Positions 20,411 to 26,598 of a stretch of DNA of 64,000 bases are shown here, in pieces. Origin of the DNA: Prochlorococcus marinus str. MIT 9301. Lineage in GTDB: Bacteria > Cyanobacteriota > Cyanobacteriia > PCC-6307 > Cyanobiaceae. A program made the translations under genes and the position numbers. A model generated the notes under the pieces. The model worked only from the letters and a program-made list of their open reading frames with translations, was not told where the DNA came from and made no database searches. Numbering within the stretch: the first letter of the stretch is position 1; each line of letters begins with the position of its first letter. Where the stretch lies: assembly GCF_000015965.1 (NCBI RefSeq), contig NC_009091.1, forward strand, positions 930,001 through 994,000, in the 5' to 3' direction.

Positions 20411-21196
20411 TTATTTACGAAGTTTAGGAATAAAAAGAGATGCGACACAAATAACACTAATTGCAGGTCCAGGCGAAAGATTAAAGACTATAGAGAGAAT
20501 AAATCCAAGAAGTGAGATACATAATCCAAAAAATGAAGACCTCATCATTGCAATTCTTAAACTATGAGCCTTATTTAGCCCTAACAAAGTTGGAGTAGAA
20601 AGAAGAGCAATTACAAGAATTACTCCCACTGCTGACATTGAACTAACAATTACTAATGCCGTCGTAAAACTCAAAGCAAGATTTAATAAAGAAACGTTTA
20701 TACCGCTCGCGGATGCACCTTCTGGATCCAATCCCACATAAACAACCTTTTCATATCCAAAAGTCATTAAAAGTATAAATACTAAAAAAGCAATTATTGT
20801 TCTAAGTAAATCTCCAAAATTTGCTGTCAATAAATCGCCAAATAATACTGCCTCCAAATCAATCCTTATTCCGAGTAAAGGGATTATAAGGACCCCAAAT
20901 CCAAGCATTCCAGCGAGAATAGTATTCATAACTGCTTCATAATTTTCACTTTTTCTATTAGTTAAACTTTCCGCAATTACTGAGCCCAGAAGACCACTTA
21001 TAACACCACCAATTGAGGGGTGAACTCCAAGCGCTAATGCGAGAGCTAGTCCGGGCAACACACAATGAGAGATTAAATTAACTTGTAATAATCTCTTATG
21101 AGTGATTAATACAGTTCCCATAGCTGGGCATAAAATCCCGGAGAATATAGTTATTATTAATGGAACCAGCCACCAGTTGTTATTAATAAAAGACAT
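20411..21196 (-). CDS. znuB: Zinc ABC transporter permease
   Basis: 261 residues with about eight membrane helices of the ABC-3 family. Visible family regions are the N-terminal ALALALGVHPSIGG and the cytoplasmic EAA-like part LDPEGASASGINVSLLN. It forms the channel of the zinc uptake system with ZnuC and ZnuA, both encoded nearby. It is divergent from zur with a 17-bp gap. Metal specificity is inferred from the zur and znuA neighbours. Confidence 0.93.
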   Translation of the reverse strand: MSFINNNWWLVPLIITIFSGILCPAMGTVLITHKRLLQVNLISHCVLPGLALALALGVHPSIGGVISGLLGSVIAESLTNRKSENYEAVMNTILAGMLGFGVLIIPLLGIRIDLEAVLFGDLLTANFGDLLRTIIAFLVFILLMTFGYEKVVYVGLDPEGASASGINVSLLNLALSFTTALVIVSSMSAVGVILVIALLSTPTLLGLNKAHSLRIAMMRSSFFGLCISLLGFILSIVFNLSPGPAISVICVASLFIPKLRK

Positions 21197-21213: not shown

Positions 21214-21648
21214 ATGATCAAAAATACGGGACAAAAAAAGATTTCGGAAACAATGGTAACTAAGTCTGACATTACCAAAAGACAAGAACAACTTCTTGAA
21301 GAACTTAATAAATGCGAGGATGAATTGACTGGTCAAGAGTTGCATAGACAATTGATAGAAAGCGGAAAAGCTATGGGACTGACGACTGTTTACAGGAATC
21401 TTCAAGTTCTGATAAAGCATGGTTTAATTCGTTCTAGACATCTCCCAACTGGAGAGGTTCTGTACACTCCCGTAGATAGAGACATTCATCATTTGACTTG
21501 TGTTCAATGTGGTGAGACATCAAAAATGGAAGGATGCCCGGTAAAAGATATTCATACACCCAAAACAAATCCAAAGAAATTCCAATTGTTGTTTCATACC
21601 CTCGAATATTTCGGGCTTTGCCAAAACTGTTATCAAGCTCAGAATTAA
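21214..21648 (+). CDS. zur: Zinc uptake regulator, Fur family
   Basis: 144-residue Fur-type repressor: winged helix (TTVYRNLQVLIKHGLIR) followed by a dimerisation domain with HHLTCVQC and the C-terminal FGLCQNC, two CxxC pairs for structural zinc. Its place inside the znu region makes it Zur rather than Fur or PerR. It starts at ATG 21214; ATG 21253 (MVTKSDITKRQEQ) would also give a complete domain. It binds zinc and represses uptake genes, probably through the palindrome at 22532. Confidence 0.93.
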   Translation: MIKNTGQKKISETMVTKSDITKRQEQLLEELNKCEDELTGQELHRQLIESGKAMGLTTVYRNLQVLIKHGLIRSRHLPTGEVLYTPVDRDIHHLTCVQCGETSKMEGCPVKDIHTPKTNPKKFQLLFHTLEYFGLCQNCYQAQN

Positions 21649-21661
21649 AAAGGAACATTCT

Positions 21662-22432
21662 CTAATCACAGAAATTATTTTCGTTTATAGAGCTAATGTT
21701 TATTGCCTCTAATTTGTCTTGTATTTGGTCAGGACTACCAACTGCCAAGACACTTTTATCAAGAACGATTACTTGATCATAGTTATTTAAAGAATCGCCC
21801 CAATCATGGCTACTTACGAGCAAAGAAAGTCCGGCATCTGCAAGTTGACGAACAATTTTAAGAAAATCCTCTTTTGCAGGCGGGTCCAAAGCTGCACAAG
21901 GTTCGTCTAAAAGAAATATTTTTGCCGGGGACATAAGAGTTTTTGCTAATAGAGCTCTTTGCTGCTGTCCTCCTGAAAGAGAATCGAGTCTTCTATTCGC
22001 CAAACTTGCAATGCCTACTCTCTGCATTGTCGCCTCTAATTCACAACATTTATTAATCCAAGAATTAGGATATGCTAGAAGAGTCTTAATTTGAAATGGG
22101 TTATTACTTCTTGATTTTGAATACTTTATTTGACCAAGAGATACCAATTTTTCAACTGTGATGGGGAACTTCCAATTCATAGAACTTCTTTGAGGCATAA
22201 GTGCCACAAGAGCTCTAGATCTATTTAAATTTTCACCATCAATTTTTATTTCTCCTTTATCAGGAGTATTTTGTCCTTGCAAAATTCTCAAAAGAGTTGA
22301 TTTACCTGCGCCATTTGGACCAATTAACGCTGTTAAAGTTCCAGGTTTAATCTCAACCGATACCTTATTCAAAACTGGCTTACTTTTTTTTGCGTATGCA
22401 AAGGTTAAATTTTCAGCGACTAAAGTAGCCAT
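21662..22432 (-). CDS. znuC: Zinc ABC transporter ATP-binding protein
   Basis: 256-residue ABC ATPase. Walker A GPNGAGKST, Q-loop in LMPQRSSMNWKFP, signature LSGGQQQRALLAKTL, Walker B IFLLDEPCAALDP and the switch SSHDW are all intact. The family pattern and location assign it to zinc uptake. Convergent with zur by 13 bp, divergent from znuA over a 136-bp control region. Confidence 0.94.
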   Translation of the reverse strand: MATLVAENLTFAYAKKSKPVLNKVSVEIKPGTLTALIGPNGAGKSTLLRILQGQNTPDKGEIKIDGENLNRSRALVALMPQRSSMNWKFPITVEKLVSLGQIKYSKSRSNNPFQIKTLLAYPNSWINKCCELEATMQRVGIASLANRRLDSLSGGQQQRALLAKTLMSPAKIFLLDEPCAALDPPAKEDFLKIVRQLADAGLSLLVSSHDWGDSLNNYDQVIVLDKSVLAVGSPDQIQDKLEAINISSINENNFCD

Positions 22433-22492: not shown

Positions 22493-22531
22493 TTTCATAA
22501 CATTTGATACCTTCACTTGTCAGAGATAATG

Positions 22532-22548
22532 AAAATGATTATCATTTT
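22532..22548. promoter_or_regulatory. Zur-box-like palindrome upstream of znuA
   Basis: AAAATGAT, one central T, then ATCATTTT: a perfect 8-1-8 inverted repeat, 20 bp before the znuA start. It resembles Fur/Zur operators of cyanobacteria (TGATAATnATTATCA type). It sits between znuC and znuA, so one site could control both. Confidence 0.75.
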
Positions 22549-22568: not shown

Positions 22569-24110
22569 ATGTCAATTTTTAAAAGACTTTTAACAAATAA
22601 AAAAGGTGCGAGTAAGTCAATTATTAAAAATTCCGTAATCGCAGGAACAATTATATTTTCTGGTTTTGGGCAGGATGTTATGGCTAAAGGAAAGTCATAT
22701 GTAGCAGTAGAACCACTAGTTTGTGATTTAGTTAAATCAATTGCATTACCGTCTGACGAAGTTACATGCTTAGTAGATAGAAAACAAGATGTTCATGACT
22801 TAAAGATCAATCCAAGGCAAGCTAAATTACTAAATAGCGCAGACAAAGTATTTACTCTTGGTAGAGAAATGACGCCAAGTATGAGAAATTGGGAAAATAA
22901 AAAGAATACTGTTGTTGTAGGTGTTAGTGCAATAGACGTAGATGATCATTCTGATCATGGAGGTCATGATGATCACTCAGACCATGGTGGACATGACGAT
23001 CATTCTAAACATTCCGCTAAAGTAGATGATCATTCTGATCATGGAGGTCATGATGATCACTCAGACCATGGTGGACATGATGATCATGCTGAAGGTGCTT
23101 TCGAATGGGCAGGCAAATTTCAACTTTCTAAGGGTTCTTACAAATGGTCATTTGAAAAAGTAGATGGCGAATATGCAGATCCTGCAATGAAGATGGTGAT
23201 TCTCAAATCTAATGACATAGAAGGGTCTGAAGATTTAGCTAAAGAATTATTAGGATCTAAAGACTCAATAAGCAGAAAAAATGATGGTACTTTGATAGCA
23301 AGTAATAAAGCTTTTGTTCTTAACTTTGATCAAAAAAAAGAAAGTACTGTTTTTAACGTGGATATCAAAGAAGATGGTCAATATATATTTTTTACTGAAC
23401 ACATGCCTTTTGAGTTTGAAGCAACTCAACACTTTTTTAAAGACGTTTCAAATAGTGATGTAGAACCAATAGCACAAGTTCCAGACGAAGGTGAGGGGCA
23501 TCATCATCATGACCATGGAGGTCTAGATCCACATGTATGGCATGATCCGCATAACATCATAAAAATGGGAGATCTTATAAGCAAAAGTTTAAAGAAAGAT
23601 ATTTCAGTTTTTAATAGAGGTGACAGAAAACTAATTAATGAAAGATTCGAAAAAGCTGATTCTCTCTTAGAAGACTTAGATAGTTGGATCGTCGAACAAG
23701 TAAGTTCTATTCCTGAGGAAAACAGAGTAATTGTCTCTAAACACAAAGCAATGGAATACTACGGGGATGCATTTGGTTTTGAAACCATTAGTTTACTTGA
23801 CTTTCTTGGAGACTCCTCAAGCTTAAGGCCAGACAACATAAGTTCTACTTTAAAAATGTTAGATGAAGAGAAAGTTCAGGCAATATTTCCTGAACAAATT
23901 CCAGCATCTAAGTTATTAAGGAACTTAAGTAGACAAAGTTCAGTTCCTTTAGCTTCTAATCAAATATTCGTTGATGGATTGATGATGGATGGTAATACGG
24001 TTTCAGTAGCTGTTCACAATACTTGTACAATTGTTGATTCATTAGGTGGAAGCTGTGATAAAGAATCTGGCTCCAATCTTGAGTCTGAATGGTACAAACT
24101 TTCAGATTAA
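22569..24110 (+). CDS. znuA: Zinc-binding periplasmic protein with His-rich repeats and an inserted domain
   Basis: Captures zinc for the ZnuBC permease. 513 residues, far longer than the usual 300 or so. Order: export region and the first lobe (YVAVEPLVCDLVKSIALP); His/Asp-rich segment at about residues 124-173; an extra domain at about 178-283 starting FEWAG; second His run (311-316) leading to LDPHVWHDPHN; and the C-terminal lobe with SKHKAMEYYGDAFG. The lobe ligands HVWHDPH and KHKAMEYY are intact. The inserted domain also occurs in the adjacent CobW-type protein. Confidence 0.93.
   Translation: MSIFKRLLTNKKGASKSIIKNSVIAGTIIFSGFGQDVMAKGKSYVAVEPLVCDLVKSIALPSDEVTCLVDRKQDVHDLKINPRQAKLLNSADKVFTLGREMTPSMRNWENKKNTVVVGVSAIDVDDHSDHGGHDDHSDHGGHDDHSKHSAKVDDHSDHGGHDDHSDHGGHDDHAEGAFEWAGKFQLSKGSYKWSFEKVDGEYADPAMKMVILKSNDIEGSEDLAKELLGSKDSISRKNDGTLIASNKAFVLNFDQKKESTVFNVDIKEDGQYIFFTEHMPFEFEATQHFFKDVSNSDVEPIAQVPDEGEGHHHHDHGGLDPHVWHDPHNIIKMGDLISKSLKKDISVFNRGDRKLINERFEKADSLLEDLDSWIVEQVSSIPEENRVIVSKHKAMEYYGDAFGFETISLLDFLGDSSSLRPDNISSTLKMLDEEKVQAIFPEQIPASKLLRNLSRQSSVPLASNQIFVDGLMMDGNTVSVAVHNTCTIVDSLGGSCDKESGSNLESEWYKLSD
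22938..23087 (+). repeat. Direct repeat encoding His-rich metal-binding segment
   Basis: Two 66-bp copies (22938-23003 and 23022-23087), offset by 84 bp, with one mismatch. Each encodes VDDHSDHGGHDDHSDHGGHDDH (in parts). A duplicated metal sponge inside znuA; the near-identity points to a recent duplication. Confidence 0.9.
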
Positions 24111-24187
24111 ATTTTTCTAATAAAAACGGTTTTCATTTCTTATTATTACTATTATTAAACTATTATTTATTTAGTAAAAATCAATAA

Positions 24188-25537
24188 ATGAGCATCAAAG
24201 ATAAAGTTCCCGTAACCATCCTCACTGGATTCTTAGGTTCAGGAAAGACTACTTTGCTTAATAGAATACTAAGTGAAGAGCACGGGAAAAGAATAGCCGT
24301 AATTGAGAATGAATACGGTGAAGTAGGTATAGATCAAGGTCTCGTAATTAATGCCGATGAAGAAGTGTTTGAGATGTCAAACGGGTGCATTTGTTGTACT
24401 GTTCGCGGTGATCTAATAAGAGTCCTTGGCAACCTTATGAAAAGAAGAGATAAGTTTGACTATGTTTTAGTAGAGACGACAGGATTAGCAGATCCAGGGC
24501 CAGTTGCTCAGACATTTTTCATGGATGAAGAAATTAGTTCTGAATTTACTCTCGATGGAATTGTGACTTTAGTTGATGCTGCACATATTGATCAACAGTT
24601 AGGCAGGAGTGATGAAAGTTCAGAACAAGTCGCATTTGCAGATGTTCTTGTCCTTAATAAAACTGATTTAGTATCTGATGATGCACTAGATACTCTTGAA
24701 TCGAGATTGAGAGATATGAACAGAATGACCCGAATTATTAGAGCCGAGAATGCCAAAGTACCAATTGAAACAGTCTTAAATTTAAGTGCATTTGATCTTG
24801 ATCAAATCCTTAAACGCAGGCCAACATTCCTTGAACCAGAATATCCTTTTGAATGGACAGGTGTTTACGATCTTGATGCAGGTAAATATGAATTAATGCT
24901 AGAAGAAGGACCCGATCCAGAAATGTCCTTAGTAGCCCTCGCTAACCAAGGAGAGAGTGAAGAAGAACTTAAAGATGGTTCTGAATCCTCCGTGAGACTT
25001 TATGCAGAAAAAGCTAATAGTTTAGTTCCTGGAAATACCATCCCATATGGAGAACATATAAATCTCAAATTGGAGGATAAAGGAAATAAATCTTTCATCC
25101 TGAACATAGAAAAACCAACAAAAATAGGTTTGTTTACACAGCACACCGCTGAAGAATTCAATATGAAAGTCATTAAAAGTGACGAAAATAAAGAGATTCC
25201 ATTAAATACTGAAAGATTCTGGCAAGCAGAGCACGAACATGATGATGAAGTAGGCTCAATTGCTATAGAGCGTTTTGGAGATGTTGACCCAGAAAAACTA
25301 AATACTTGGATGGGAAGACTTCTATCAGAAAAAGGAGTGGATATATTCAGAACTAAAGGTTTCATAAGTTACTCAGGTAACCCAAGGAGAATAGTTTTCC
25401 AGGGAGTTCACATGTTATTTACTGCACAACCTGATAAAGAATGGGGTAACGAACCTCGTAGAAATCAACTTGTTTTTATCGGTAGAAATTTAAATGAGAA
25501 AGAGATGCAAGAAGGCTTTGATAAATGCCTGATATAG
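24188..25537 (+). CDS. CobW/COG0523 family GTPase, probable zinc chaperone
   Basis: 449 residues. G3E GTPase motifs: GFLGSGKTTLLNRIL (Walker A, from residue 14), NEYGEVGIDQGL, the metal-binding SNGCICC, VETTGLADPGPV and LNKTDL. Residues 221-325 are an extra domain beginning FEWTG that resembles the ZnuA insertion. The C-terminal CobW_C domain (from about 355, DPEKLNTWMGRLLSEKGVDIF) closes the protein. The neighbours argue for zinc delivery rather than cobalamin synthesis. It follows znuA and overlaps the next gene by 13 bp. Confidence 0.9.
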   Translation: MSIKDKVPVTILTGFLGSGKTTLLNRILSEEHGKRIAVIENEYGEVGIDQGLVINADEEVFEMSNGCICCTVRGDLIRVLGNLMKRRDKFDYVLVETTGLADPGPVAQTFFMDEEISSEFTLDGIVTLVDAAHIDQQLGRSDESSEQVAFADVLVLNKTDLVSDDALDTLESRLRDMNRMTRIIRAENAKVPIETVLNLSAFDLDQILKRRPTFLEPEYPFEWTGVYDLDAGKYELMLEEGPDPEMSLVALANQGESEEELKDGSESSVRLYAEKANSLVPGNTIPYGEHINLKLEDKGNKSFILNIEKPTKIGLFTQHTAEEFNMKVIKSDENKEIPLNTERFWQAEHEHDDEVGSIAIERFGDVDPEKLNTWMGRLLSEKGVDIFRTKGFISYSGNPRRIVFQGVHMLFTAQPDKEWGNEPRRNQLVFIGRNLNEKEMQEGFDKCLI

Positions 25538-26598
25538 AACCATTTAGCCCAAGAGGCATGTTCCATGAAGGATGGACTGCTGAAGTTAGCGATTATGCCA
25601 TAGCATGTGGTTGGGCTCTTAAAGGGAAACAATTTATTGTTGGCGACGTGGCAGGTGGTATTTTTGCATTCGAAGGAGATACTGGAAAAATTATTTGGAA
25701 AAAAGAAAATACACACTCCGGTGGTCTATTAGCAATGTCCATTCATCCAGAGGGCGAGATTTTTGCAACATCAGGTCAGGATGGAAATGTTCAAATTTGT
25801 AATTGCCACGAGGGTAAAGTAATTAAAACACTTAATCTTGGTAAGGGTTGGGTAGAACACCTCAAGTGGTCTAATGACGGTTTGTTTCTAGCGATAGCTT
25901 CCTCAAAAAAAGTATATGTTTTTAATGAAATTGGAGAAGAGAAATGGATCTCAGAAGACCATCCAAGCACAGTAAGTGCAATAACATGGTCAAATAAAAA
26001 TGAGCTTGCAACTGCATGCTACGGAAGAGTGACATTCTTTGACATTGTTAAAAATAAAACGAATCAAAAACTGGAGTGGCAAGGATCATTGGTCTCTATG
26101 GAATTAAGCCCTGATGGAGATATAGTCGCCTGTGGTAGTCAAGACAATTCAGTTCATTTTTGGAGAAGATCAACAGGAATGGATGCTGAAATGACTGGAT
26201 ACCCTGGAAAACCAAGTCACCTTTCTTTTGATGACAGCGGAAAATTATTAGCGACTAGCGGCAGTGAAAGAATTACAGTATGGAGCTTTATAGGCAATGG
26301 TCCAGAAGGGACTATGCCAGGAGAGCTATGTCACCATACAGAACCTATTTCGAGCTTAGCCTTTTCAAATAAAGGTATGCTTGTAGCCTCAGGATCTAGG
26401 GATGGTTCTGTTGTCGCAAGTTTCCTAAAAAATGACGGCAATGGAGACCCAGTTGGGGCTGCATTCGCCGGAGATTTGGTAGGGGCAATATCATGGAGAC
26501 CTGATGATTGTGCACTTGCAGCAGTTAATGCAAAAGGTGTTGTAAATGTATGGAAATTTAAAGTTCGTACTAACTTTTTTTCAAAGGGATTTAAGTAA
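25525..26598 (+). CDS. WD40 repeat protein of the zinc region
   Basis: 357 residues forming a beta-propeller; the repeats are recognisable from units such as GQDGNVQICN, GSQDNSVHFWRR, ATSGSERITVWS and SGSRDGSVVAS. No signal peptide. Its start overlaps the end of the CobW-type gene by 13 bp, implying translational coupling and a shared function. WD40 proteins of this type commonly accompany cyanobacterial COG0523 genes; it may act as a scaffold for the chaperone (inference). Confidence 0.88.
   Translation: MPDIEPFSPRGMFHEGWTAEVSDYAIACGWALKGKQFIVGDVAGGIFAFEGDTGKIIWKKENTHSGGLLAMSIHPEGEIFATSGQDGNVQICNCHEGKVIKTLNLGKGWVEHLKWSNDGLFLAIASSKKVYVFNEIGEEKWISEDHPSTVSAITWSNKNELATACYGRVTFFDIVKNKTNQKLEWQGSLVSMELSPDGDIVACGSQDNSVHFWRRSTGMDAEMTGYPGKPSHLSFDDSGKLLATSGSERITVWSFIGNGPEGTMPGELCHHTEPISSLAFSNKGMLVASGSRDGSVVASFLKNDGNGDPVGAAFAGDLVGAISWRPDDCALAAVNAKGVVNVWKFKVRTNFFSKGFK

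Follow-up and report, generated by a model that had tools for sequence, protein, structure and literature searches.

The FEW domain, as we propose to call it, is a module of about 105 amino acids present in the products of two neighbouring genes of a zinc-uptake neighbourhood in Prochlorococcus marinus str. MIT 9301. It forms an insert in a ZnuA-type substrate-binding protein and another in a CobW-type GTPase of COG0523, and the two inserts are homologous. The window, that is, the whole stretch of DNA analysed here, comprises 64,000 nt (GCF_000015965.1, NC_009091.1, 930,001–994,000, forward strand). An earlier note, made from the sequence alone, had proposed an unnamed domain common to both proteins, and the comparisons below bear this out far above chance. 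The insert is apparently a real and widespread domain, unnamed as far as the searched libraries and literature go. It is the domain that appears to be new, while its kinds of host protein were already known.

Based on BLASTP, the ZnuA and CobW segments matched each other with an E-value of 3e-7 and 28% identity (E 1e-5 for the whole proteins), and profile–profile alignment of the inserts by hhalign gave 95.8% with E 6.6e-9 over 107 columns. A profile built from CobW inserts only placed the window ZnuA second of 436 window frames (E 1.7e-14), and the reciprocal ZnuA-only profile placed the window CobW second (E 2.2e-7). The former scored the ZnuA insert at 53.2 bits versus a best of 11.4 among 2000 shuffles, the latter the CobW insert at 29.8 versus 8.1. 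Chance likeness was ruled out by the BLASTP, profile–profile and shuffling results. Both inserts are linked to the same archaeal and bacterial relatives, and both are under purifying selection, with the ratio of nonsynonymous to synonymous substitution rates (dN/dS) well below 1 in all 11 pairs compared (dS 1.10 and dN 0.084 in an example pair).

Both segments lie at the nucleotide positions originally assigned to them; the last core residue of CobW is F324, one less than the 325 first given, and its nucleotide end was right. The FEWxG, GxY, DPxM and FTxH...EF elements were confirmed by alignment as common to the two inserts, GxY not being kept in every wider relative. Two other proposed elements did not hold up: FVLN of ZnuA aligns to INLK of CobW and FILN of CobW to FNVD of ZnuA, so that FxLN is not one homologous strand, and SExxL is not conserved in the wider family.

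The isolated inserts matched no family in Pfam (E up to 10) or NCBIfam, and in PHROGs only phrog_13536, unconvincingly (E 0.21). Three stand-alone haloarchaeal proteins with the domain likewise gave no family in Pfam or NCBIfam. A PDB sequence search with the inserts returned no significant match, and the weak rows seen with profile A1 (3cx3, E 0.095) were absent with the wider profile A5. A literature search of titles and abstract openings found no mention of the insert; one in PMC3323870, on zinc genes of marine cyanobacteria, is possible.

AlphaFold models of the two inserts, built from separate alignments, both contain three strands, a helix and further strands (predicted local distance difference test, pLDDT, 84.1 and 83.1). 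The order of elements and the best structural rows agree between the models, and the FEW domain is apparently a beta-sandwich, as far as prediction goes. Foldseek gave no significant match to either model, the best rows (E 0.032 and 0.027) belonging to other folds and a match to families unlisted there still being possible. In the structural comparison, the rows of both models were headed by GOLD domains, known from SEC14-like proteins and p24 (1o6u, Z 6.2, 3.1 Å, 87 residues; 4uyb, Z 4.6, 3.3 Å, 88 residues), at a level within chance, and GOLD families had no Pfam sequence match to either isolated insert.

As the earlier note had stated, the inserts sit inside otherwise known metalloproteins. 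ZnuA matches PF01297 with E 8.7e-42 and 143.8 bits (curated cut-off 29). It is the same host protein as in that family, with the insert placed within the His-rich loop before DPHVWHDP, but here the Pfam match is split into two stretches, and a whole-genome search likewise gives two separate PF01297 matches. The gene neighbourhood and a Zur-like box suggest zinc as the metal it carries. At the same znu locus, G024, G376 and G320 encode a ZnuA with only a His/Asp-rich loop and no insert (66%, 66% and 64% identical to the window ZnuA where the two align), whereas G023, G032 and G114 have two tandem insert copies. The first tandem copy of G023 (L026/L033) occupies the position of the N-terminal His repeat of other strains. 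G320 also has a second, insert-bearing ZnuA (L262/L261 pair) about 620 kb from its znu locus and 94% identical to the window ZnuA, which makes this genome a natural side-by-side comparison. In the 8-kb stretch around that gene, only ZnuA matches the znu, zur, cobW and WD40 proteins of the window.

The window CobW matches PF02492 (E 2.4e-61) and PF07683 (E 1.9e-24) and contains the GCICC motif. In cyanobacterial CobW proteins encoded beside a WD40 gene (L257, L258), the chain runs straight from FL(E/N) to xAHEHDE, whereas the window protein has 129 extra residues at that joint, directly before HEHDDE. The same gap relative to the window CobW was found by tblastn in L255 and L256. Counting repeats, 204 of 206 CobW-type instances have an HxH[DEN] motif after the insert. 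In the cyanobacterium G108, a second, broken CobW insert fragment with an internal stop codon was observed (L095:4322-4525); the frame ahead of it resembles a P-type ATPase by eye.

The domain occurs in at least four kinds of host: COG0523 GTPases, ZnuA-type proteins, lipoprotein-like proteins and a membrane protein. The pairing of ZnuA and CobW, first taken for a trait of one region, is therefore only one instance of a recurrent domain. Domain-bearing GTPases were found in several phyla, and ZnuA-type hosts in Prochlorococcaceae and haloarchaea. Within the genus set of 37 genomes (G000–G036, the window genome included, many incomplete), 23 have the ZnuA type and 28 the CobW type (in G008 partial, at a contig end); all 23 with the former also carry the latter, and five have CobW only. 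An excerpt of a review (PMC8786288) describes CK_2462, a ZnuA cluster of picocyanobacteria, as nearly missing from Prochlorococcus, and the insert-bearing ZnuA of these 23 genomes may belong to another cluster. At the class level, 33 of 388 genomes gave a match, in two families only, and the ZnuA type was confined to the family of the window.

Counts in other phyla were made with profile A5 and include the centre genome of each: 7 of 246 genomes in Actinomycetota (centre G422, Rubrobacter), 2 of 398 in Pseudomonadota (G421, Steroidobacteraceae), 9 of 149 in Acidobacteriota (G423, Bryobacteraceae) and 38 of 84 in Poribacteria (G424). A scan of genome contigs confirmed at least 554 relatives. 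Among the best 80 listed, most were from Prochlorococcus, and the 12 relatives examined beyond Prochlorococcus and Synechococcus, among the matches listed, were all of the CobW type.

Among plasmids, 11 of 72,556 records matched, including one of Pantoea soli. Four haloarchaeal plasmids encode the ZnuA type (Halorientalis, Haloarcula halophila and Halorubrum by annotation, Haloarcula rara by sequence), and two plasmids, of Pantoea agglomerans and Paraburkholderia, the CobW type. Behind a copied gene row, the Haloarcula halophila plasmid (L277 / L199) has a second, interrupted gene for an insert-bearing binding protein. The three stand-alone haloarchaeal proteins are also encoded on plasmids; by visual inspection each has a twin-arginine-like start and a lipobox-like Cys, and the tail of each is rich in His. 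One of these lipoprotein-like proteins (L193:4875-5426) is encoded directly after urease and urease-accessory genes, a hint of nickel. Judged from hydropathy, the Alicyclobacillus plasmid protein (L188:4794-5705) crosses the membrane several times, and its copy of the domain sits in a loop that contains His. Its gene lies near metal-related genes, and the protein has no Pfam family above cut-off; its C-terminal part reached PF02659 (Mntp) only below cut-off (E 0.0041), so the host was left unnamed, although it may resemble NicO/RcnA transporters. Viral contigs gave 42 pattern matches and no relatives. Spread by phages was rejected as well, the five weak partial matches in phages (from Pseudomonas phages; E 0.01 at best, covering 61% of the query) being taken as chance.

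The tree and the residue counts are based on the 49 rows left after removal of three truncated frames and, for each host type, of near-duplicates above 72% identity. In the numbering of the CobW insert, G12 is invariant, and E9 of FEW (47 rows), W10 (47), D30 of DPxM (47), H106 of FTxH (48), E110 (47) and F111 (48) of the ..EF ending are nearly so. E9, D30 and E110 are changed in exactly two related Poribacteria copies, L268 and L269 (to K, Q and D); L268 also has Tyr for H106 and Leu for F111, and W10 is Tyr in two other rows. This joint departure suggests that E9, D30, H106 and E110 serve one site, and in the models all four are predicted to lie at or beyond strand ends. Both Poribacteria CobW inserts (L268:3648-5006, L269:3337-4722) have HHHEHDDD directly downstream.

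The surroundings of the domain vary with the host: in exported proteins it is found within or next to His-rich loops, in the GTPases ahead of the short HxH motif, the exported or cytoplasmic location being deduced from the protein families. For the His counts, exact repeats and eight mislabelled frames (seven cut by contig ends, one Paraburkholderia CobW) were excluded. In 77 distinct cyanobacterial ZnuA inserts, His makes up 20.5% and 19.7% of the 40 residues before and after the insert, versus 1.6% in the rest. The corresponding values for four haloarchaeal ZnuA-type inserts are 22.5% and 16.9% versus 3.3%, and in the three lipoprotein-like proteins His reaches 22.7% after the domain.

Based on the above results, we suggest that the insert serves as an accessory domain for holding metal and trades this metal with the His stretch beside it, a reading to which we give a little less than an even chance. 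The ligands would be provided by the E/D/H/E set at the strand ends, and the bound ion, Zn2+ or, in certain hosts, possibly Ni2+ or Co2+, would be exchanged with the neighbouring His residues. In ZnuA, the insert would load the cleft during uptake; in the GTPase, it would pass metal between the HEHDDE motif and a client or the GCICC site. The use of the domain in a cytoplasmic GTPase as well as in exported proteins is more easily explained by a ligand common to the hosts than by a single common protein partner, and the His setting, the zinc neighbourhood and the occurrence on both sides of the membrane point to metal as what is shared. In most cases, the four kinds of host are connected with metals through their family or their gene neighbours. 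What the analysis shows is common descent, the predicted topology, the clean insertion and placement of the domain, the zinc-uptake neighbourhood and the conserved residues, whereas the clustering of the four residues, their binding of metal and the direction in which it would move are inferred. Somewhat more tentatively still, the FEW domain may be an undescribed metal-binding domain, widely spread in bacteria and haloarchaea, that serves inside and outside the cell membrane as a general relay or buffer for zinc, and perhaps for nickel or cobalt, in partnership with stretches that are His-rich or contain HxH.

Several observations weigh against a metal-holding role. Orthologues of both ZnuA and COG0523 proteins exist without the insert, which is thus inessential to either host, and the HxH motif is also found in insert-less CobW orthologues. 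The idea of a His-rich stretch next to every copy failed, since 200 of 332 instances (repeats included) have fewer than three His in both 40-residue flanks; the His-poor instances listed are mainly CobW copies and the first copies of tandem ZnuA inserts. There is one near-invariant His only and no near-invariant Cys, and W, G and F are conserved in the same motifs, so the E/D/H/E set could be structural. The joint loss of this set, seen in a pair of related rows, counts as a single event. Of the three stand-alone haloarchaeal genes, two lack any clear neighbour with a link to metals. Finally, the GOLD rows (Z 6.2 and 4.6) lie below the level that the tool treats as meaningful, and 4uyb is tied with unrelated sandwiches (next row Z 4.5).

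It is possible, but rather doubtful, that the insert is instead a protein-interaction or spacer domain, a GOLD-like sandwich that docks the host to a partner and has no metal of its own. The partner would be the WD40 protein for the GTPase, and the permease or an outer-membrane factor for ZnuA. The position of GOLD domains of SEC14-like proteins at the head of the rows for both models would fit docking just as well as metal holding, and the small amount of His around most CobW copies speaks for docking. The gene neighbourhood also gives docking some weight. Forty insert-bearing CobW loci were annotated, of which three repeat the same place, leaving 37 distinct loci. A WD40 gene adjoins cobW in 34 of these (the exceptions being L096, L264 and L271), and a ZnuA homologue lies within the flanks in 15. 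Taken from its nearest start codon, the WD40 frame begins before the end of cobW in 35 of the 37 loci that were measured (counting repeats; several phyla), with an overlap of mostly 13 bases, which suggests coupled translation. Only 5 of 39 cyanobacterial genomes, those with an insert-bearing CobW, yielded a close WD40 homologue (E of 7e-59 or lower). However, four further genomes of the 39 have only a distant WD40 homologue (E 4e-24 or weaker), beside an insert-less CobW (L255–L258), so the pairing of CobW and WD40 is independent of the insert. Moreover, the domain is also used in exported proteins, where the WD40 partner is absent, and its best-conserved polar positions, three acidic residues and one His, are located at the ends of strands instead of making up a broad surface. 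Z values of at most 6.2 are within chance for such folds, and the tie of the 4uyb row counts here too.

A role in zinc sensing, suggested by the earlier note beside zinc transfer, appears unlikely. Metal bound to the insert would then alter how far the His-rich loop extends or how fast the GTPase works, and so tune uptake and delivery. In both window proteins the insert separates the His stretch from the working parts, and the region has a Zur-like box, which would agree with this; yet no feature of a regulatory switch was seen in sequence or structure, the regulator Zur is already present, and the stand-alone forms have no second known domain to regulate. Of the role first suggested, the zinc-uptake neighbourhood is upheld and transfer or holding is plausible from context and residue conservation, while nothing points to sensing.

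Less likely again is the binding of a non-metal ligand, such as a carbohydrate, a metal chelate or a peptide, as in many small beta-sandwiches. CBM35 modules occur among the weak structural rows of both models, and the near-invariant Trp (47 of 49 rows) could be read in this way, but most hosts are metal-related, the near-invariant set consists of acids and His, and a carbohydrate role is hard to picture in a cytoplasmic GTPase. Metal holding is accordingly ranked ahead of docking, with sensing and then another ligand behind them.

In the tree of 49 rows, one branch (support 93/86) separates 13 exported-protein copies from 36 CobW copies, and the same split was obtained in a first tree of 47 rows (support 97/91). 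The exported side comprises the cyanobacterial and haloarchaeal ZnuA-type, lipoprotein-like and membrane protein copies. The split is suggestive, not decisive. A clade of cyanobacterial ZnuA and Prochlorococcaceae CobW inserts, as a recent copy between the window genes would produce, was rejected by the approximately unbiased (AU) test (p-AU 0.00128), so the two window neighbours carry separate lineages of the domain; the test shares the long-branch pull of the model, and the stem of the ZnuA inserts is long (1.69 changes per column). In the best tree, cyanobacterial and haloarchaeal ZnuA inserts stand apart, but a single clade of both was not rejected (p-AU 0.336), and separate origins are therefore not claimed. 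It is highly improbable that the likeness of the window inserts arose by chance, by convergence or through recent copying of a segment from one gene into its neighbour: the low identity and the adjacency of the genes would allow it, but the scores exceed those of shuffles and of all other window frames by far, the archaeal and bacterial relatives are the same, and the clade expected from a recent copy is rejected.

The genome around the window (G000) has 1.64 Mb, and the gene order in the region is znuB (-), zur (+), znuC (-), znuA (+), cobW (+) and WD40 (+) (Table 1). The Zur-like box is the sole window site with at most one mismatch to a Zur consensus; at up to three mismatches, the 21 sites in the window are not above chance (mean 18.6). 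An excerpt of PMC9337993 places a Zur site between znuC and znuA in Synechococcus WH8102. Outside the window, the genome encodes a second PF01297 binding protein (G000:C1:555593-556381), a 302-aa frame with an unbroken profile match; this protein of ordinary length is possibly for manganese.

Table 1. Features of the znu–cobW region, with positions in the window.
Feature	Position	Strand	Basis or detail
znuB-type permease	20411..21196	-	Open reading frame (ORF); name from sequence and neighbours
zur, Fur family regulator	21214..21648	+	ORF; name from sequence and neighbours
znuC-type ABC ATPase	21662..22432	-	ORF; name from sequence and neighbours
Zur-like box, divergent znuC/znuA promoter	22530..22548	.	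TGAAAATGATTATCA; 1 mismatch to the consensus
Palindrome within Zur-like box	22532-22548		AAAATGATTATCATTTT
znuA, zinc-type (cluster A-I) substrate-binding protein, 513 aa, insert in His-rich loop	22569..24110	+	ORF, PF01297
His/Asp-rich repeat, ZnuA loop, N-terminal side of insert	22941..23092	+	27-bp unit, 5.5 copies
ZnuA insert domain, residues 176-293	23094..23447	+	Conserved core F178-F283 = 23100-23417
HHHHDHGG stretch of ZnuA, C-terminal side of insert, directly before LDPHVWHDP	23499..23522	+	Sequence, alignment
cobW-type COG0523 GTPase, 449 aa	24188..25537	+	GTPase domain 8-184, CobW_C 356-448
CobW insertion, residues 217-345, absent from insert-less orthologues	24836..25222	+	Core F221-F324 = 24848-25159
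HEHDDE motif, directly after CobW insertion, before CobW_C	25232..25249	+	Alignment
WD40-repeat protein gene, 13 bp overlap with cobW end	25525..26598	+	ORF, family scan

COG0523 GTPases and ZnuA-type proteins are central to the acquisition and allotment of zinc in the cell. The natural orthologues with no insert, one insert or two offer a direct way to test the role of the His stretches, and the domain may shed light on how Prochlorococcus takes up zinc in its very zinc-poor habitat.

Among known systems, AztD is described in excerpts of PMC6689063 as a periplasmic zinc chaperone with a beta-propeller that hands zinc to the binding protein AztC. It resembles the present case in that a propeller protein, and often a CobW-family gene, is linked to a zinc ABC transporter; AztD is periplasmic, whereas the WD40 gene here follows that of a cytoplasmic GTPase, so the likeness is one of analogy. 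ZepA, a zinc-handling exoprotein of Anabaena, shares with the FEW-bearing proteins a beta-sandwich domain, a connection with zinc limitation and nearby COG0523 genes. Compared by the description in excerpts of PMC10957091, ZepA has two domains and no homologues in Archaea, while the FEW domain occurs in haloarchaea and also alone. The closest counterpart of the window GTPase is subfamily 5 of COG0523, for which the relevant parts of Haas et al. (2009, PMC2770081) give, in prokaryotes, a WD40 neighbour, a znuABC neighbourhood and Zur sites, and which is said there to include most eukaryotic COG0523 homologues, the human one among them. Those parts make no mention of an insertion. The window CobW agrees with this subfamily in the GTPase and CobW_C domains, the WD40 neighbour, znuABC and the Zur sites, and differs from it by the 129-residue insertion between the two domains.

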